Source: Alistipes timonensis (GTDB lineage: Bacteria > Bacteroidota > Bacteroidia > Bacteroidales > Muribaculaceae). Taken from it: a stretch of 64,000 nt of DNA. The notes beneath the pieces are model-generated. The model searched no databases. It saw only the letters and a list, made by a program, of their open reading frames with translations, and was not told where the DNA came from. Location of the stretch: positions 1 through 64,000 of the forward strand of contig JAMPHO010000002.1 of the NCBI GenBank assembly GCA_023663385.1, written 5' to 3'. The translations under genes were made by a program, and so were the position numbers. Shown in pieces: positions 5,813 through 61,733 of the stretch (the stretch's first letter is position 1; every line of letters starts with the position of its first letter).

Positions 5813-5906
5813 ATTCGCATTCATTGAAATGACTGAATTTCAATGCGAAAAAGCTAAAAGTCAAAAAAACTTAAAATAATTTATCGAACATTCAGGAAAT
5901 AATTCA

Positions 5907-5914
5907 TATATTCG
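5907..5914 (+). promoter_or_regulatory. candidate -7 element TATATTCG
   Basis: TATATTCG fits the Bacteroidetes sigma-A -7 consensus TAnnTTTG at 7 of 8 positions, 44 nt before the beta-barrel gene. No convincing -33 TTTG is seen at the usual 19-21 nt spacing, in an AT-rich stretch (5825-5920). Confidence 0.35.
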
Positions 5915-5958
5915 CGTCAGCAAGCCTCTAAACGACCAATAAATCCCATTCATAACCA

Positions 5959-8319
5959 ATGCGTCTGCCAATCCGAAATTCTAATACATCATCGCTTCGC
6001 CATACACATTTACCTAAGAGCAGCCGAAACAGACTATTGCTCGCCGTATTGGCATTCGTATGGTTTACCATTAACGCTGATGCCGCGGTGATTCAGGGAG
6101 TTGTCCGCGACGGCGTAAATATGTCGCCCGTTGAATACGCGCGAGTTGAATTGGAGGAATTGAACCGGGCGAAAATCATCGCCGGAGCCTACACCGACTC
6201 GCTCGGCAGGTTCCAATTTGACGTGACCGCACCCGACTCCTGCCGGATAACAGTGAACGCGTTTGGATACCACCCATCGGTAAAAACAATCGCCAAAGGA
6301 ACCAACACCAACCCGATAACGATAACCCTTGAAGCTAATTCAAAAGCGTTGGACGAGGTTACCGTCACCGCCGAGGCCGTTACGAGAATCGACGGCGGCT
6401 ATAGGCTCATTCCGAGCAAGAACCAGGTGAGTCACTCGGTCGGAGGTTACAACCTGCTCAACAGCCTAATGATACCCGGTGTTGATGTCGACAGGGAGAA
6501 CGGCACCGTGTCGGCCCGGGGCTCACAAACCAAGTTATATATAAACGGAATCGAAGCATCGACCCGCGAAGTACAGTCGCTAAGAGCGAAAGATGTGCTC
6601 CGCGTCGAATATTTCGACTCCCCCAAAGGACAATACGCCTTGGACGGAACCGCCATCAATTTCGTCCTCAAAGAACGAACATCCGGCGGATATGTCGACG
6701 CCGTGGCCCGGCAGACAATAGGTTTCGCCAAAGGGACCCTCGACCTTACCGCCCGATTCTTCAACAAAAACACGCGGTTCACCCTCTACGGCGGAGCGGG
6801 ATATAACGCTTACAGCGGCAGCTCGTCACACTCAACGGACACTATAAACTTCCCTGACTCCCGGGTGATTCGCGAAAAGAAGTCAAAACTCGCCAAACTG
6901 CGCTCCAACTCGGAATACCTTCAGTTTCAAGTGCAGAACTCCAACAAAAAGCGCACACTGAGGGGCGACATAATTTTCGGGCGCGACGCGACCCCGCGCA
7001 ACGAGACCAATGGGTCAACGAAATACTCCATAGATGAATCGAGGAATTTCACCACCACGACCGAAACCACTAACCGCTCTACAACCGGCACCCTGAAACT
7101 TTACGGCAAATTCAACATCGCCTCCAACCATATGCTTGAGGCTTCCGTGCTCGCTCGATACGGCCACAACAAATATAACTATGCCTATCTACAGTCGGAA
7201 ACGCCGGGCATCGAATCCAATGTGTCGGAAGACAATTTCAACCAGCGCGCGAATCTGAAATACGTCTGGAACGCCGACAAAAAGAACACGCTTTCAGCCG
7301 TAGCCACATACTCAAGCCAGATCAACGACGCCGAATACAGGGGCACAATCACGAACAATCAGCACATATTCATAGGGTTAGGCACAGGAGGCGTCTCCTG
7401 GCAGCATCGCTTCGGCAAATGGACCACCAACCTCATGCCCGGTATCGCTGCATCGCTATACCACACTCGTGGCTATAAGACGACACAGAACTACTCTCCG
7501 AGCCTCACCATCAGTCTTGACGGCCAGCCCGGCAAAAACGATTTCATATTCTTCGAGGGGTATATGGGTGTCTCCTACCCCCCGACCAGCTTTATGACCT
7601 CCGCCATCCAGTATATCGATCCGCTGGAAGTCTCCGTTGGTAATCCCGAGCTCGATGTGACCCGTATGTATATGGGCACGCTCGTTTACGGCATCGGCAT
7701 CGGCAAGGTCAATCTGCAATGGTTCGCGAGATACCTGTTGCAAAACAACGCTATCGCTTACCGATACGACACCGAGGGGGAACTCCTCGTGCGCGCTTTG
7801 CGGTCCGACACCAAAAACCATATTTTCGTGACCAACATCAGCGGTACCTGGCGCCCCAACAACAAGTTCAGCATTTCAGGCTCCGCATCCTACTCCTATC
7901 AGGGGAACAAGGTGCCCGGCGAGACAACTCCCTGGGTGAACCTGTTCATCGGCCGCGCCCAGGCATCGTATTACATAGGCAAGTTCTCAATCAACGCCAA
8001 CTACGAATCGCCCAACGAAATCAGCAGCTATGGTCTGACGCGCATACGCACATCGCACAAATATGGAGCGTCGGCCTCGTTCGCCACAAGCGGTTGGCTG
8101 CTTGAGGCCGGCTTCAACAACCTGTTCCTCAAACCAGCGACCGATAGTTGGACCTACTCGCGCTCCTTTAGCGGCCTCTCCACCCGCAAGGAGAAAACCG
8201 ATATGTCGCACGGGTATATACGGGTGTCATACTCCGTAGATTTCGGCAAGAAGATGAGGCATACCAAGGAGGGTCCCGACCGCTCGACATCCGAATCTGC
8301 CATCCTGCGAGCCAACTGA
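5959..8319 (+). CDS. outer-membrane beta-barrel protein with CarboxypepD-regulatory-like and plug domains
   Basis: This 786-residue protein starts with a long basic leader and a hydrophobic signal segment (about residues 25-43, ending ADA). A carboxypeptidase-regulatory-like beta-sandwich follows (VIQGVVRDG to about residue 125), then a plug-like region (LDEVTVTAEAV; GSQTKLYINGIEA; VLRVEYFDSPKGQY) and a long C-terminal beta-barrel rich in aromatic/polar alternation. This is the Omp_b-brl_3 family of TonB-receptor-like proteins, shorter than SusC (about 1000 aa) and with no adjacent SusD. G+C is visibly lower (near 50%) than in flanking genes, suggesting later acquisition or relaxed codon use. 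Substrate unknown. It stands alone between a terminator and a REPIN-like repeat. Confidence 0.8.
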   Translation: MRLPIRNSNTSSLRHTHLPKSSRNRLLLAVLAFVWFTINADAAVIQGVVRDGVNMSPVEYARVELEELNRAKIIAGAYTDSLGRFQFDVTAPDSCRITVNAFGYHPSVKTIAKGTNTNPITITLEANSKALDEVTVTAEAVTRIDGGYRLIPSKNQVSHSVGGYNLLNSLMIPGVDVDRENGTVSARGSQTKLYINGIEASTREVQSLRAKDVLRVEYFDSPKGQYALDGTAINFVLKERTSGGYVDAVARQTIGFAKGTLDLTARFFNKNTRFTLYGGAGYNAYSGSSSHSTDTINFPDSRVIREKKSKLAKLRSNSEYLQFQVQNSNKKRTLRGDIIFGRDATPRNETNGSTKYSIDESRNFTTTTETTNRSTTGTLKLYGKFNIASNHMLEASVLARYGHNKYNYAYLQSETPGIESNVSEDNFNQRANLKYVWNADKKNTLSAVATYSSQINDAEYRGTITNNQHIFIGLGTGGVSWQHRFGKWTTNLMPGIAASLYHTRGYKTTQNYSPSLTISLDGQPGKNDFIFFEGYMGVSYPPTSFMTSAIQYIDPLEVSVGNPELDVTRMYMGTLVYGIGIGKVNLQWFARYLLQNNAIAYRYDTEGELLVRALRSDTKNHIFVTNISGTWRPNNKFSISGSASYSYQGNKVPGETTPWVNLFIGRAQASYYIGKFSINANYESPNEISSYGLTRIRTSHKYGASASFATSGWLLEAGFNNLFLKPATDSWTYSRSFSGLSTRKEKTDMSHGYIRVSYSVDFGKKMRHTKEGPDRSTSESAILRAN

Positions 8320-55291: not shown

Positions 55292-55327
55292 ATCCCCGCC
55301 AACCGCCCCCCAGCGCTTGGCGGGGAT
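55292..55327 (+). terminator. terminator of the 50880-55234 operon
   Basis: ATCCCCGCCAA (55292-55302) pairs with TTGGCGGGGAT (55317-55327), followed by T/C-rich sequence. A nearly identical hairpin occurs at 56664-56695. Confidence 0.8.
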
Positions 55328-55742: not shown

Positions 55743-56612
55743 ATGCGAATCTCAACAATCACGCTCTCGCTGGCCGCCCTGGCCTCCGCGCTCACAGCGA
55801 CCGCCAACACGTTTATCACCGAAAAGAACTCGACCCGGTTCAGCGTCATTCCGGCGCAGTTAACCTCCGACGACCAACCCAAATGGACCTTCTTCAATCG
55901 CGGGGCCGACCGCCGCTATGGCAAAGGGTGCTCTTTTGAAATCACCAACCGCGACTTCACACAGTCGAAAAAAATCACCCCGGTTCTGGCTGAAAACGCG
56001 ATGCTGGTAGTTGCCGAAGGTCTGTACGACTACTACAACGGAAGTTATGACTCTTCTTACTTCTACGCCACACAGACCCTCTTCAACAACGACGACAAGT
56101 ATGAATACATGGTCGAGACCCTCAACGCCGCGGGGCGTCCCACCTCGGTTACAGTGCTCAACGAGGACGGAGCCGCTGTAAGCGTGTTCGACTTCAAGGA
56201 CAAGGCTCTGATGGATATGGAAGGGGACGGCCAATGCATAATCATCGGCGGCGGCGACAAAACAATTCTCCTGTTCTACCTCCAGGAAATCAACGAACCG
56301 TGGGGTGAATACCTCGCCGCGTATGCCGTTGACAAAGCCACCGGCGCGGTAGAGCACCTGCGCACCACACCCTCCGGGGCGACAGTGGCCCCCACCCTCG
56401 TGAGCGGTGGCGAACCAGTTGAAATCAAGCTCGGCTCTCCCGCCGCCACCCCGCTGGCCGTCGCCGTCAGCAACGTCAACGGCGCGCTCGCCCTCAATGC
56501 CGAAATCCCCGCCGGAAGCGACTCGTTGAGCCTCCCCGCCGGCAACCTCCCCGCCGGCATCTACATCGTCAGCGTCGCCGGCAAAGAACACACCAAAATC
56601 ATCGTCCGCTAA
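55743..56612 (+). CDS. secreted protein of unknown function with type IX-like tail
   Basis: 289 residues from ATG 55743 (MRISTITLSLAALASALTATA signal peptide). The middle region (about 25-200) is not recognised: beta-rich with aromatic repeats (YDYYNGSYDSSYFYATQTLFNNDDKYEYMVETL). The last 80 residues look like a sorting domain (VEIKLGSPAATPLAVAVSNVNGALAL...GNLPAGIYIVSVAGKEHTKIIVR). It is the smallest of five neighbouring secreted proteins with such tails. It is flanked by two near-identical terminators, and it may share the transcript of the structured RNA upstream. Confidence 0.72.
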   Translation: MRISTITLSLAALASALTATANTFITEKNSTRFSVIPAQLTSDDQPKWTFFNRGADRRYGKGCSFEITNRDFTQSKKITPVLAENAMLVVAEGLYDYYNGSYDSSYFYATQTLFNNDDKYEYMVETLNAAGRPTSVTVLNEDGAAVSVFDFKDKALMDMEGDGQCIIIGGGDKTILLFYLQEINEPWGEYLAAYAVDKATGAVEHLRTTPSGATVAPTLVSGGEPVEIKLGSPAATPLAVAVSNVNGALALNAEIPAGSDSLSLPAGNLPAGIYIVSVAGKEHTKIIVR

Positions 56613-56663: not shown

Positions 56664-56695
56664 TCCCCGCCAACCGCCCCCGCGCTTGGCGGGGA
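56664..56695 (+). terminator. terminator of the 55743 gene
   Basis: TCCCCGCCAA (56664-56673) pairs with TTGGCGGGGA (56686-56695). Stem, loop and the following ATTCCT are nearly the same as at 55292-55327. Confidence 0.78.
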
Positions 56696-56708: not shown

Positions 56709-56739
56709 TTGGATAATACGTCGAATATTGCTAACTTTG
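56709..56739 (+). promoter_or_regulatory. promoter of the ATPase/nuclease-like cassette
   Basis: TTG (56709-56711), a 20-nt spacer and TAACTTTG (56732-56739), a full match to the sigma-A consensus. Leader of about 80 nt to ATG 56826. Confidence 0.7.
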
Positions 56740-56825
56740 CGACTGTATGACGCTTGGATAAAACTTAGTCCGTATCTATTCGCATAGCATTTTGCCGCAT
56801 TTAAAAGAGTTCAACGCAGCCGTTT

Positions 56826-57974
56826 ATGATAAAGCACTTTAACATCAGTAACTTCGGACCGATAGGAGAAGTTGATATTAATTTTGGCGACCTTACGTTT
56901 TTTGTGGGGCCACAAGCGAGCGGCAAGAGCATCACTCTTGAAGCCATAAAGCTCATAGCCGACCGCGACAGCATTATCGAAACGCTCGACCGATACAACT
57001 ATATCCTCGGCCACGACTCAAAGCGCATTCTCAACGTGTACTTCGGCGAAGGCATGGAAGGGATGTGGAACCCGCGTACAAAAATGGCTCTCGATGGCGA
57101 GACGCTTACTCTCTCCAAGTTGTCAAAGAAATCATCAGGGGAGGAAAGTTCCGTATTCTATGTTCCCGCTCAGAGAATTGTGTGTATGGGCGACGGCTAT
57201 CCCAAATTCTTCAGTGACTTTTCTTTCACAACGCCTTACGTTCTTAGAGAATTTACCGAAACACTGCGCACTTTCGTGCAATTCGGACTCGGCGACAAGA
57301 AAACTATTTTTCCAATCAAGGAGCGCCTTAAAAACATTCAGAAACAGTCGTTTGACGACAGCATCTTCCATAAAGGTGAGGTCGTGATGGCCGAAGTGGC
57401 GGGACAAAAGAAAATGCAGCTGTCGGTCGACGGGATGAATATCCCCTTTATGGCCTGGAGCGCCGGACAAAAGGAATTCATGCCTCTGCTGCTGGCGTTC
57501 TACTGCCTGTCGGGACCCCCATCGAAGGTTATCAAGCGCAGCGCGTATAAAACCGTAATAATCGAAGAGCCTGAAATGGGGCTCCACCCGCAAGCCATTG
57601 TAAACGTGCTGCTCCAAATTTGCGAACTGATCACGAGCGGTCACCAGGTAATAGTGTCGACCCACTCGCCGTTACTGTTGGAATATGCCTGGGCATTCAA
57701 CACCCTGCGGGATAATTGCGACAATTTCCACGAAGCATTGTGCGCACTCTTCAAAATCCAAAGCGATTCATCTGTAGGCAAAATGCTTGAAAAAATGGTC
57801 GGGAAAGAGATACGCACATACTTTTTCTCGCGCAACGGCTCCGCCGCTAAAGTCAGCGCCAAGGACATCAGTTCGCTCGATGTGGCATCCGACGAGCAAT
57901 CACTCGCCGAGTGGGGCGGCATATCGGAATTCTCCGCCCGAGTCAACAGCGTTGTTTCCGACTATTTGAACTGA
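56826..57974 (+). CDS. AAA (SMC/ABC-like) ATPase of an unassigned two-gene cassette
   Basis: 382 residues. FNISNFGPIGEVDINFG leads to Walker A GPQASGKS (28-35). SAGQKEFMPLLLAF (212-225) is an ABC-signature-like loop, VIIEEPEMGLHPQ (244-256) is Walker B with the glutamate pair, and VSTHSPLLLEY (277-287) carries the switch His280. A middle insertion (about 90-205) replaces the long coiled coil of SMC proteins. There is no TOPRIM or HNH domain in the 95-residue C-terminus, which separates it from OLD and Gabija GajA. G+C is clearly lower than in neighbours (near 45% in sampled stretches), a sign of transfer. The partner gene begins 1 nt after the stop. Many such ATPases act in phage defence; this is inference. 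Confidence 0.8.
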   Translation: MIKHFNISNFGPIGEVDINFGDLTFFVGPQASGKSITLEAIKLIADRDSIIETLDRYNYILGHDSKRILNVYFGEGMEGMWNPRTKMALDGETLTLSKLSKKSSGEESSVFYVPAQRIVCMGDGYPKFFSDFSFTTPYVLREFTETLRTFVQFGLGDKKTIFPIKERLKNIQKQSFDDSIFHKGEVVMAEVAGQKKMQLSVDGMNIPFMAWSAGQKEFMPLLLAFYCLSGPPSKVIKRSAYKTVIIEEPEMGLHPQAIVNVLLQICELITSGHQVIVSTHSPLLLEYAWAFNTLRDNCDNFHEALCALFKIQSDSSVGKMLEKMVGKEIRTYFFSRNGSAAKVSAKDISSLDVASDEQSLAEWGGISEFSARVNSVVSDYLN

Positions 57975-57975
57975 T

Positions 57976-58491
57976 ATGGCTCGGAAACAACCACAACAGC
58001 CAAAAGCTGAGTCAAAGCCATTGGCCGACGCATGCGACTCGGCCCAAGCCCTGAAAGAGTTCTTTTCAGCGGGACTCGGTGCGATGAAAAAGATTGAGCG
58101 GAAGTCAATCAAAGTTCCTGATACAGCACTGATTGGAGGCTCTGTCGCATTGGACGAAGCGGCCAAAGAGTCCTTTCCCCAAAGCAACCGCTGGGACTAC
58201 GCGATAGAGTATGACGGGCACACTTTCTTCATTGAAATCCATCCCGCCGCCACATCGGAGATTGACTGCGTGATTCAAAAAGCGATATTCGCCAACAAAT
58301 GGCTGAAGGATAACGCGCCGGAGCTGCTGAAACTACCGAAAAAGGAGAATGGAGCCCGCTCGTTTTATTGGGTATCATCCGGCAACACCGACATACGCGT
58401 AACCCCCGGCTCACCACAAGCCAAGAAACTCGCCTTGCATCATATCAAACCCGTAGGCCGTATTTGGGATTACGCCAAACTGTTCAAATAA
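57976..58491 (+). CDS. small partner protein of the ATPase, possible divergent PD-(D/E)XK nuclease
   Basis: 171 residues, no family name recognised. The first 35 residues are charged and polar. A core near 70-110 reads NRWDYAIEYDG...FFIEIHPAATSE, i.e. Asp74-x12-Glu87-x-His89, followed by a helix (IDCVIQKAIFANKWLKDNAPELLKL). That spacing recalls the (P)D-xn-(D/E)-x-K active site with His in place of Lys. The C-terminal half has FYWVSSGNTDIRVTPGSPQAKKLA and ends GRIWDYAKLFK. Starts 1 nt after the ATPase stop, so coupled. Its stop abuts the stop of the convergent LRR gene with no spacer. A nuclease or toxin-like effector is inferred, not shown. Confidence 0.7.
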   Translation: MARKQPQQPKAESKPLADACDSAQALKEFFSAGLGAMKKIERKSIKVPDTALIGGSVALDEAAKESFPQSNRWDYAIEYDGHTFFIEIHPAATSEIDCVIQKAIFANKWLKDNAPELLKLPKKENGARSFYWVSSGNTDIRVTPGSPQAKKLALHHIKPVGRIWDYAKLFK

Positions 58492-60063
58492 TCACGGAAG
58501 TCTTTCGTGCTTCATGGAGGCGGGTTCGCCGGGGTAGTACCAGCCGTAGCCAAGGTCGTTGTAGGTGCCGGTTTCGGGGCGGTATTCGTAGCGGCGGTCA
58601 TATTCAAACTCCAGGCATTTGTCGAAATGCTCGGGTATCTCGCCGCCGATACGGTTGCCCTGGCACCACAGTCGCGACAACCTGTAGTCGGTTATGTGCT
58701 CCACCTCGCGCAGTCGGTTGTAGGAGCAGTCGAGCCGCTCGAACACATCGTCGAACCCCGCGAGGTCGAGTGTCTCCAGGCGGTTGTATGAGCAGTAGAG
58801 CCAGCGCAGCTTGCGGCATCCGGCCACGGTGAGCGACGTCAGGTCGTTGTCGGAGCAATGCAGCTCCGAGAGGTTGCGATAGCCAGTCATATCGAGCGAG
58901 GTCAGGCGGTTCGAGAAGCAATAGTAACAGGAGAGCGCGTCCATCTGGTCGGAGGTGTCGAGTTCCGTCAGGCGGTTGTTGTAGCAATAGATCCAGCGAA
59001 GCCGCGGCGACCCTTTGACGTTGAGCGACTCCAGCTCGTTGTCGCCGCAGTTAAGTATTTCCATTATAGGCGCGTTCCCTACGTCGAGCGTGCGGATTTC
59101 GTTCTCATAGCAGAACACATCTTTCAGCCTCTGGCGGTGGGGTATTTCGAATTTCGTAAGGCGGTTTGTGAAACAGTCGACAGTCTCCAACATCACGCAC
59201 TCCGACAGGTCCAACTCCGTCAGTCGGTTATGATTGGCGTAGAGCCGCGTGAGGGTCTTGCTCCATCCGATGTCGAGCCGCTGGAGATTATTGTAGGGCA
59301 CACTTACGTCCGTCAGCGATAGGCACCCCTCGAAGTTAATCTCTTCCATTGAATTGTTGGTGCAGTCAATCTCCTTGAGGAGGCGGCACCCCGAAACGTC
59401 GATTTTCGATATCTGGTTCTTGGCGCACCGCAGACTCACCAGGGCGTCGCACCCCGAGAGGTCTATCTCCCCCTTGAGGTAACGCTCGCCGAGATTGAGC
59501 GAGAGCAGCCCGTTCTCATAACGCACCTCCGAGCCCCACTTGTCGAGCGGGAGGTCAGAACCCCAGTTCCCCTTGAAGCGCCAGTTGGGCCCGTCGGTCA
59601 TCTCATAGAGCCGCATCAGGTAGGCCCTCACCTCCGCTTCCGAGGGGAGCGTCACCCCCGCGTCCTCCTGGCGCACCACCACCGTCGCCGATGCGCGCCC
59701 GGCGGTAATCTTTATGGTAGTGGAGCGGGGCGCGCCGGAAGTGTTCGGCAGCGCCACATAGCCCACCCGCAATGCGCCCGCCTTGCCCGAGCGCTCGGTA
59801 ATCTGGCCTTGGAAATGCTCGTTGGTGTTCGGCACCTCCATAGCCCAGTCGGTATTGGCGTTGAAAACAATCGTCACCTCGCCCCCTTCGGGCAGCGCGG
59901 TGAGTTCGGGGGTCTCCACGACCACCGCGTCGGGTTCCTTCGGCTTCGGCACCTCCTCGGCATCGTCGGCACAGGAAACCACCAAAAACAAGCACGAAAG
60001 CACCAACAAACCCGCGGCCATCGGCCACAGCCGCTGAATAATTGGAAAGAGACGCATATTCAT
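58492..60063 (-). CDS. BACON and leucine-rich-repeat surface lipoprotein
   Basis: 523 residues. Start MNMRLFPIIQ or the Met at residue 3. The lipoprotein signal ends LVVSC (Cys31), followed by an acidic ADDAEEVPKPKEPD. Residues about 47-140 form a BACON-type beta domain (ELTALPEGGEVTIVFNANTDWAMEV...SATVVVRQEDAG). From about 145, YEMTDGPNWRFKGNWGSDLPLDKWGSEV leads into some twelve LRRs of the form LxxLxCxxNxLxxLDxSxCxxL. The Cys-containing consensus is of the bacterial LRR_BspA-neighbour type. Likely a surface binding protein. Divergent from the ECF sigma gene. Confidence 0.85.
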   Translation of the reverse strand: MNMRLFPIIQRLWPMAAGLLVLSCLFLVVSCADDAEEVPKPKEPDAVVVETPELTALPEGGEVTIVFNANTDWAMEVPNTNEHFQGQITERSGKAGALRVGYVALPNTSGAPRSTTIKITAGRASATVVVRQEDAGVTLPSEAEVRAYLMRLYEMTDGPNWRFKGNWGSDLPLDKWGSEVRYENGLLSLNLGERYLKGEIDLSGCDALVSLRCAKNQISKIDVSGCRLLKEIDCTNNSMEEINFEGCLSLTDVSVPYNNLQRLDIGWSKTLTRLYANHNRLTELDLSECVMLETVDCFTNRLTKFEIPHRQRLKDVFCYENEIRTLDVGNAPIMEILNCGDNELESLNVKGSPRLRWIYCYNNRLTELDTSDQMDALSCYYCFSNRLTSLDMTGYRNLSELHCSDNDLTSLTVAGCRKLRWLYCSYNRLETLDLAGFDDVFERLDCSYNRLREVEHITDYRLSRLWCQGNRIGGEIPEHFDKCLEFEYDRRYEYRPETGTYNDLGYGWYYPGEPASMKHERLP

Positions 60064-60173: not shown

Positions 60174-60204
60174 TTTGGCCGATAACAGAAAAAACGTAAC
60201 TTTG
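60174..60204 (+). promoter_or_regulatory. promoter of the ECF sigma operon
   Basis: TTTG (60174-60177), a 19-nt spacer and TAACTTTG (60197-60204), a full match. It overlaps an upstream TTG codon (60175), which therefore cannot be the start; transcription begins near 60211. Confidence 0.75.
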
Positions 60205-60234
60205 CCGGGAACTTTCACGGAGGGATACATACCA

Positions 60235-60798
60235 TTGGCTGATTCGCAGCGACATAAGGATAACGGCAAACGGGAGCGCCATTTGATCGAGCGCCTCCGC
60301 GGCGACTCGCGGGAGGCGTTCGACGAAATTTACCGAATGTACGCGGGGCGCCTGTTGTCATATTGCCGGGCGATCACCAAGGACAAGGAAACCGCGAAAG
60401 AGATTACCCAGATAGCCTTCATAAAACTATGGGACGCGCGCCGCTCCATCAGGACCGACGACAATATCGGCTCGCTGATATTCCGTATGGCCCGCAACGA
60501 GGTGATCGACGCCTTCAGGGCCCAGCTGCGCCGCGGCGCTTACGAGGACTATCTGGAATACATCGACCAAGTACCCGCCAACGACTCTTCAACGTCGCGG
60601 ATCGAATATCACGAGTTCGTGGAAAAGCTTATGAAGGCCCTCGACTGCCTACCCCCGACACAACGACAGGCCATAACCCTATGCCGGCTCCAGGGCCTCG
60701 GCAACCAGGAAGCGGCCCGGAGGCTGAATCTCAGCGAGCAAACCGTGCGCAACCAGCTATCGCTCGGGCTCAAACGGCTCTACGAACTACTGCGGTGA
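60235..60798 (+). CDS. ECF RNA-polymerase sigma factor (FecR-paired)
   Basis: About 187 residues from TTG 60235, set by the promoter and by a GGAGGG at 60219-60224 (10 nt upstream). No in-frame ATG occurs before region 2. Region 2 is DEIYRMYAGRLLSYCRAITKDKETAKEITQIAFIKLWDAR; region 4 is CLPPTQRQAITLCRLQGLGNQEAARRLNLSEQTVRNQLSLGLKRLYELL with a helix-turn-helix. It belongs to the Bacteroidetes FecI-like group that switches on the adjacent SusC-type transporter when FecR is signalled. 41 nt before fecR. Confidence 0.9.
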   Translation: MADSQRHKDNGKRERHLIERLRGDSREAFDEIYRMYAGRLLSYCRAITKDKETAKEITQIAFIKLWDARRSIRTDDNIGSLIFRMARNEVIDAFRAQLRRGAYEDYLEYIDQVPANDSSTSRIEYHEFVEKLMKALDCLPPTQRQAITLCRLQGLGNQEAARRLNLSEQTVRNQLSLGLKRLYELLR

Positions 60799-60839
60799 CC
60801 ACCTAAAATAACGCGTTTCAACTATCATACATCACACAT

Positions 60840-61733
60840 ATGCGTCCCTCCATCAGCAAACTATTAAAAAAATACCGCCGCGACGAGATTTCGCGCGATG
60901 AGATGCGCGAACTGCGCGAATCGGTCGACGCCATGGCCGACTCCGACCTTGAGCGACTCCTGACGGACGACTGGGACGAATTCAACTCGGCCTACGCGCC
61001 CCCGGCGCGGCGACGCTGGGTGCCCGCGCTGCTCCGCGTGGCCGCCGCGGCGGCTGTGGTGCTTCTGGCAGGTACGGCATGGCATCTCCACCGCGAGCTC
61101 TCGTCAATCGGCTCGGCAACCGCCACAATCGCGTCGACCCCCGACAACAACTCGCTGGTCACCCTGCCCGACGGCACCGCCGTGATCCTCCGCCAGTCGT
61201 CGCGGCTTACCTACGCCGCCGCTGACTTCGCCGGAAAGCGCCGCGAGGTAACATTCGAGGGTGAAGGGTTCTTCGACGTGAAGTCCGACGCCTCGCACCC
61301 GTTCGTAATCAGCGCGCCCGGATTCCAGGCCATAGTCAAAGGCACCAGTTTCAACCTCTACGGCTCCCCCGCCGACAGTATCGCCGAGCTATCGCTGGTG
61401 AGCGGATCGGTCGAGCTCCGCACCGCCGATGGAGCGGTCACGCCCCTCAAACCAAGTCAGAAAGCCGTGATAAACCGGCTCACGGGCAGCGTGACACTCG
61501 CCACCTGCGGCGGCATCAAAGAGGTAACGGCTTGGCAGCGAGATGAAATCGCGCTCGAAAACGCCACCTCGGCCGACATAGCCCGTGCCTTCAACCGCTA
61601 CTACGGCGTGAACGTAACCATCGGATGCGACAGCGGCGAAACCTTTACCGGCACCCTGCCCATATCCTCCATGCCCTTGGCTATGAAGGTAGTGCAGCTC
61701 GCTTTGGGTTGCGAGGTCACCGCCCAGCCCTGA
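60840..61733 (+). CDS. FecR-family anti-sigma factor
   Basis: 297 residues. A short cytoplasmic N-terminal part (1-60, rich in charged residues), one TM helix (about 64-80, LLRVAAAAAVVLLAGTA), then a periplasmic FecR domain (SLVTLPDGTAVILRQSSRLTYA...REVTFEGEGFFDVKSDASHPFVISAPGFQAIVKGTSFNLYG) and the C-terminal DUF4974-like domain (IALENATSADIARAFNRYYGVNVTI). It holds the sigma factor inactive until the STN domain of the downstream SusC-like receptor signals substrate binding. Lies 41 nt after the sigma gene and 157 nt before susC. Confidence 0.92.
   Translation: MRPSISKLLKKYRRDEISRDEMRELRESVDAMADSDLERLLTDDWDEFNSAYAPPARRRWVPALLRVAAAAAVVLLAGTAWHLHRELSSIGSATATIASTPDNNSLVTLPDGTAVILRQSSRLTYAAADFAGKRREVTFEGEGFFDVKSDASHPFVISAPGFQAIVKGTSFNLYGSPADSIAELSLVSGSVELRTADGAVTPLKPSQKAVINRLTGSVTLATCGGIKEVTAWQRDEIALENATSADIARAFNRYYGVNVTIGCDSGETFTGTLPISSMPLAMKVVQLALGCEVTAQP

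Follow-up and report, generated by a model that had tools for sequence, protein, structure and literature searches.

In the 64,000-nt stretch of Alistipes timonensis analysed here (contig JAMPHO010000002.1, positions 1 to 64,000; hereafter, the window), two adjacent genes on the + strand form a real pair that is likely defensive, a catalogued candidate and of a published kind, combining an OLD-type ABC ATPase with a PD-(D/E)XK-type nuclease. The first open reading frame, gene A (56826-57974), encodes an OLD/SMC-like ABC ATPase of 382 residues, and the second, gene B (57976-58491), a small PD-(D/E)XK-like protein of 171 residues. In searches against PADLOC-DB, A matched the model PDC-M56A (E = 1e-152, residues 3-381) and B matched PDC-M56B (E = 1.7e-39, residues 13-162), in both cases nearly over the full length and with no difference found. 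Since both proteins match PDC-M56, a candidate of PADLOC-DB 2.0.0 (2023), the pair is this catalogued candidate, and the label 'undescribed' in the initial annotation, which was made from the sequence alone, is not supported; the functional guess of a defence system made there is likely right. We favour, with somewhat better than even confidence, a two-gene anti-phage system in which A senses infection and B cuts an essential nucleic acid, so that infection is aborted. New here are the tight co-occurrence of A and B, the E-x-H site of B, and the nested positions of the pair in DISARM and type I restriction operons. PDC-M56B is the only PADLOC match of B at E ≤ 1, and the second-best PADLOC match of A is AriA (E = 2.6e-25). 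No NCBIfam model (June 2026) scored above its cut-off for A or B. PDC-M56 is named in no paper found by full-text literature search, and the term PDC is absent from the PADLOC web-server paper (PMC9252829).

The co-occurrence of the two families, which the initial annotation proposed to check, turned out to be near-perfect. A set of 40 loci was collected from public genomes starting from B, using the pattern PxxNRWDY[AV][IL], which predetermines the residues it names. Gene A lies upstream of B on the same strand in 37 of these loci, being in pieces in L039 and cut by the contig end in L025, and the other three loci (L005, L022 and L034) start at a contig end. In the genome containing L034, A is located at the end of another contig and is followed by approximately the first 40 residues of B. 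Of the 34 loci measured, 33 have the two genes spaced by -20 to +18 nt and the remaining one, L003, by 197 nt; the measurement excludes L039 as well as L011 and L029, for which the ATG rule picked an internal start. Among 61 genomes of relatives, A (E ≤ 1e-40) and B (E ≤ 1e-3) are present in the same four, and among 296 genomes of the window's phylum B was found in six and A (E ≤ 1e-50) in five, all five being shared and adjacent. The N-terminal part of B is apparently disrupted in one of these phylum genomes (G118), and the sixth B (G244) is without its N-terminus and without A. When 188 genomes from the phylum to which L041 (labelled Myxococcales in its record) belongs were searched starting from A, five had A; four of these have an adjacent B, and in the fifth A and B are both broken. 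Only one of 72,556 plasmid records, typed as mobilizable, has A, and B is found in that same record.

Neither gene was found in phage records at the thresholds used (E ≤ 1e-3 for B, E ≤ 1e-15 for A); at E ≤ 0.01, weak matches to A were obtained in three records, two being the P2 Old gene. In viral contigs no B was found with the first alignment, and A was detected at three loci. One of them (L128, 5112-6799) has an intact pair, and the other genes of this contig resemble phage genes on visual inspection; another (L129, 5989-7212) has A followed by roughly the first 35 residues of a truncated B; in the third (L130) only the C-terminal part of A is present at the contig end and B was not found. 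A C5 methyltransferase and a type II restriction enzyme are encoded near the pair in L129. Among the loci and genomes examined, no intact A could convincingly be said to lack B. A single-sequence search returned 4957 relatives of A at E ≤ 1e-40 and a profile search 346 relatives of B at E ≤ 1e-5; because these limits differ and both searches depend on shared words, part of the A relatives may have other partners. In one search yielding 53 homologues of B, both of the two that are named by organism belong to Muribaculaceae. The pair occurs in records labelled Bacteroidota, Planctomycetota, Acidobacteria and Myxococcales.

All the ATPase motifs listed in the initial annotation (GPQASGKS, SAGQK, EEPEMGLHPQ and STHSP) are present in A, with their key residues kept in 34 of 34 aligned sequences, the set to which all counts for A refer. 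The residues invariant in this set are G28, Q30, G33 and Lys34 of the Walker A motif GPQASGKS (residues 28-35; 56907-56930), G214 and Q215 of the ABC signature SAGQK (57459-57473), Glu247, Glu248 and H254 of the Walker B/D-loop EEPEMGLHP (57564-57590), and His280 of the H-switch STHS (57657-57668). The C-terminal region (57690-57971) likewise has W289, I348, L351, W363, G364 and G365 in 34/34 each and, by analogy with WonA (PMC12137116), may form the surface for dimerization and docking of B. Pfam assigns AAA_15/AAA_21 domains to A, domain-library searches point to family similarity with RecF/RecN/SMC, and the predicted model of A is Rad50-like, with DNA-clamping ATPases as the top structural matches. 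As had been noted from the sequence for the ATPase, there is no TOPRIM or HNH match of Pfam or PADLOC, and this holds for both proteins of the pair, and Pfam found no TOPRIM anywhere in the 382 residues of A.

The motifs of A together with its spread bear on two alternatives. Resemblance to RecF/RecN/SMC families and to Rad50 could indicate housekeeping DNA repair by a RecF/Rad50-like ATPase and a repair nuclease, but the pair is rare and patchy (four of the 61 relatives, six of the 296 genomes in the phylum) and of low G+C content, one copy is carried by a plasmid of mobilizable type and another by a viral contig (L128), and decayed copies exist, so that we give this explanation the lowest probability of all. 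The same patchiness, and the fact that a small effector-like protein shares an operon with a larger partner, would fit a toxin-antitoxin module in which B is the toxin and A merely its antidote or a sequestering partner. This is highly improbable as well: the ABC catalytic motifs kept in all 34 A sequences would be needless for an inert antidote, and in WonAB, according to the consulted part of PMC12137116, WonB is toxic only alongside active WonA.

Protein B has no match in Pfam, NCBIfam or PHROGs, in Pfam not even at E ≤ 1, and the weak Pfam matches of single sequences among 39 of its relatives include no agreed plausible family and no HNH family. Against PDB sequences nothing credible was retrieved with B, the two matches being at chance level (E = 0.67 and 0.77), and nothing with the B profile; Foldseek of B on viral models gave no match at E ≤ 0.001. 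The AlphaFold2 model of B (predicted local distance difference test score 93.3) has mainly PD-(D/E)XK nucleases as its structural neighbours; in this examination of the small protein's structure, suggested initially, the predicted fold resembles PD-(D/E)XK enzymes modestly, with Z-scores of up to 6.4. The alpha-beta-beta-beta-alpha-beta core of that superfamily is a tentative assignment for B. Of the 50 rows in the VIA structural list for B, 45 are PD-(D/E)XK nucleases; 2aee is not one, and 9wuf, 9ykj, 3fov and 4zqu are of uncertain class. The neighbours are mostly DNases.

Residues Asp74, Glu87 and His89, singled out in the initial annotation, are conserved beyond chance, in 215, 215 and 216 of 216 aligned rows (214 distinct), respectively; the sole row without D74 and the sole row without E87 have a gap in a fragment. 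Asp74 belongs to the NRWDY motif (58186-58200), in which W73, D74 and Y75 are each present in 215 of the rows, with one gap, and N71 in 207. Glu87 and His89 form an E-x-H motif (58234-58242) at the place of E-x-K. Further conserved positions are Asp60 (58153-58155; 214/216, one Glu and one gap) and Lys102 (58279-58281; 214/216, two Glu), the latter located in the next helix of the model (residues 93-113). We infer that Asp74 is likely the first metal ligand; Asp60 is possibly a further acidic active-site residue, and Lys102 possibly a displaced catalytic Lys. Of the PD-(D/E)XK-like arrangement claimed earlier, D74 and E87 are present, but the motif is no more than approximate: the complete D ... 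(D/E)-x-K pattern is absent from B, with His89 replacing Lys in 216/216 rows and Lys102 lying in the next helix. A relationship of B to the Card1 nuclease domain was considered and rejected, the profile comparison with four Card1 domains being not significant; the single local alignment from this non-significant comparison pairs NRWDY with NEFDV and EIH with ECK. Unlike in Can2/Card1/Cdn1, where the four Card1-family relatives compared have E-C-K, B has E-x-H, no Pfam match and no second domain.

The statement in the initial annotation that the pair matches no nameable system has been overtaken by the literature, in which the same plan is found as WonAB and relatives in the portions consulted of PMC12137116 and PMC12839542. 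WonAB is encoded by the WASA-1 prophage of Vibrio cholerae; according to the consulted part of PMC12137116, WonA is an OLD-type ABC ATPase requiring K34, R182, E300 and H333, and WonB is a 16.1 kDa PD-(D/E)xK variant requiring K71. The same part of the source reports that WonAB aborts infection and stops translation, that overproduced WonB leaves genomic DNA intact and that WonB toxicity requires active WonA; it also speaks of a larger, as yet uncharacterised ABC-ATPase/nuclease family and refers to PD-T4-4, and the portion consulted of PMC12409358 repeats its account of WonAB. Likened by description, both WonAB and our pair are two-gene operons of an ABC ATPase and a small PD-(D/E)XK-type protein (B by its predicted model), and ours has no TOPRIM or HNH. 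The Lys34 needed in WonA has its counterpart in the invariant Lys34 of A (Walker A by our own reading of both proteins), and the WonA-type residues K34, E248 and H280 are intact in 34/34 A sequences, corresponding to K34, E300 and H333 of WonA. The Walker B Glu and H-loop His (again by our reading) are located at 248 and 280 in A versus 300 and 333 in WonA, which means that A is approximately 52 residues shorter between Walker A and those residues. WonB needs Lys71, which may or may not be the lysine of an E-x-K motif; B has the E-x-H motif (216/216) and Lys102 (214/216). The published wonA primer had no match in viral contigs.

An operon of the same kind as WonAB, 'OLD-ABC ATPase + Novel REase', was reportedly described by Krishnan et al. 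in 2020. Other related plans were compared as well. In Septu (PtuAB), PtuB is an HNH protein; B differs from it in its predicted fold and in lacking any HNH match. PD-T4-4, an ATPase with a PD-(D/E)XK-type nuclease according to the consulted part of PMC10952713, is like our pair in this composition but differs in that B does not match its nuclease model and A matches PD-T4-4_A at just 5.7e-11. PARIS (AriAB) and Gabija (GajAB) join an OLD-type ATPase with a nuclease, as stated in the portion seen of PMC12839542. Protein A matches the AriA models of PARIS (2.6e-25), whereas the TOPRIM nuclease AriB has no equivalent in our pair, B matching neither AriB nor TOPRIM. In Gabija, GajA has TOPRIM, which was not matched in A, and the UvrD-like GajB has no counterpart next to the pair in the window.

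The location of the pair in other genomes further supports its defensive role in part of the loci. In L041 (1337-15674), the order on one strand is DrmD, DrmMI, A, B, DrmA and DrmB, so that a DISARM operon encloses the pair, and in L015 (5400-10000) the pair is flanked by HsdS and HsdM of a type I restriction operon. The order HsdS, A, B, HsdM recurs across a contig gap in the genome containing L034, since an HsdS-like gene (5830-7029, E = 6e-40) ends about 30 nt before A in L135 (5830-8311) and HsdM is directly 3' of B in L034 (23-1954). L033 adjoins a PDC-M29A ATPase (E = 7e-50) and L013 an AbiLi-like ATPase. The PDC-M29A ATPase of L033 (3085-4771) overlaps a gene for 182 residues which has no PADLOC match and directly precedes A-B, and the two are possibly another two-gene system. 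In L093 (5081-12883) and L094 (2764-4821), from two genomes of one genus, a UvrD-like helicase of 686 residues (73% identity between the two) begins 8-10 nt past the stop codon of B; the L094 copy matches GajB with E = 1.5e-23, and A-B-helicase is possibly a three-gene, Gabija-like version. Nearby in L093 are HEC-07 and a Septu PtuA accompanied by a protein labelled HNH-like by eye.

Other neighbourhoods weigh against this association; the defence islands that the initial annotation proposed to check are seen in part of the loci, and many others look ordinary. The scan took up to two genes per side where present and covered 123 of 132 neighbours; the nine genes longer than 800 residues were set aside, six of them being scanned with PADLOC and three left unscanned. 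Among the 25 of 114 PADLOC and 25 of 119 Pfam neighbour families listed, none has more than two members, and many listed families have metabolic or surface functions. The picked neighbours have ordinary domains or none in 14 loci (L010, L011, L017, L019, L020, L024, L028, L030, L035, L038, L084, L085, L086 and L092). The association with defence neighbours is qualitative, because there is no matched control of random genes.

These neighbourhoods also bear on an alternative which we consider unlikely, although deserving attention, namely restriction of DNA, with A as a Rad50/SMC-like clamp on invading DNA that directs cutting by B and lets the host survive, as in Septu or Gabija. The DNA-clamping ATPases among the top structural matches of A, the structural neighbours of B, mostly DNases, the nesting in DISARM and type I restriction operons and the helicase genes of L093 and L094, one with its GajB match, are all consistent with it. 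However, apart from shorter cuts of the L093/L094 genomes, none of the other available loci longer than 3 kb has a relative of the helicase (tblastn, E ≤ 1e-5), and the closest described kind, WonAB, stopped translation and left genomic DNA intact, as far as the part consulted of PMC12137116 reports.

In the window itself, a single base separates the stop of A from the start of B, as described initially, and the pair is, as claimed, poorer in G+C than both flanks (0.499 versus 0.597 and 0.591; window, 0.602), falling within the lowest 0.3% among 624 windows of 1666 bp. Its position between a terminator-like hairpin and a convergent gene also agrees with the initial reading. The gene 5' of A ends at 56612, and 3' of it there is a terminator-like hairpin (CCCCGCCAA...TTGGCGGGG, then ATTCCTCTTA; 56665-56694, + strand), identified by consensus match only; on the other side is the convergent LRR/BACON gene (58492-60063, - strand). 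Identical hairpin arms (CCCCGCCAA ... TTGGCGGGG) occur at 55294-55325 and 56665-56694, 3' of two neighbouring genes, and the window has four copies of CCCCGCCAA on its + strand. The promoter ascribed to the pair is retained as a candidate of Bacteroidota type, TTGG-N20-TAACTTTG (56709-56739, + strand), positioned by a match to the consensus of that type; the window contains 4 copies of TAACTTTG against 0.71 expected, and a sigma-70 scan found no site at 56709-56739. A sigma-factor-like gene followed by an anti-sigma-like (FecR-type) gene, both labelled by eye, adjoins the LRR/BACON gene (60175-61733). An empty insertion site was not demonstrable in 13 congeners, in which the best identities of flanking genes were 51% (LRR gene, G001) and 31-34% (sigma-factor-like gene).

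Returning to the anti-phage reading, in which the motifs of A and the predicted models of both proteins agree with the ATPase plus nuclease-like partner proposed at the outset, A would dimerize on ATP, B would dock on the conserved C-terminal region of A, and a phage-induced change would let A license B. Cleavage of an essential nucleic acid by B would follow and abort the infection; judging from WonAB, the likeliest target would be RNA of the translation machinery, with DNA second. In the consulted part of PMC12839542, OLD-ABC ATPases with HNH, PD-(D/E)XK or PIN nucleases in BREX neighbourhoods are regarded as likely backup effectors, and the nesting of our pair in DISARM and type I restriction operons suggests a backup role. 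A more specific version, to which we give only a small chance, is that PDC-M56 is a distinct OLD-ATPase/nuclease branch, with an Asp-Glu-His site and a Lys in the next helix, serving as a fail-safe for DISARM and type I systems that cuts tRNA or rRNA once a phage disables restriction. If the anti-phage reading is true, the pair would provide a compact two-gene model, present in several phyla, for the larger uncharacterised ABC-ATPase/nuclease family mentioned in the portion seen of PMC12137116. Two points would become directly testable: the signal to which such ATPases respond, and whether a PD-(D/E)XK-like enzyme is active when His takes the position of the usual Lys.
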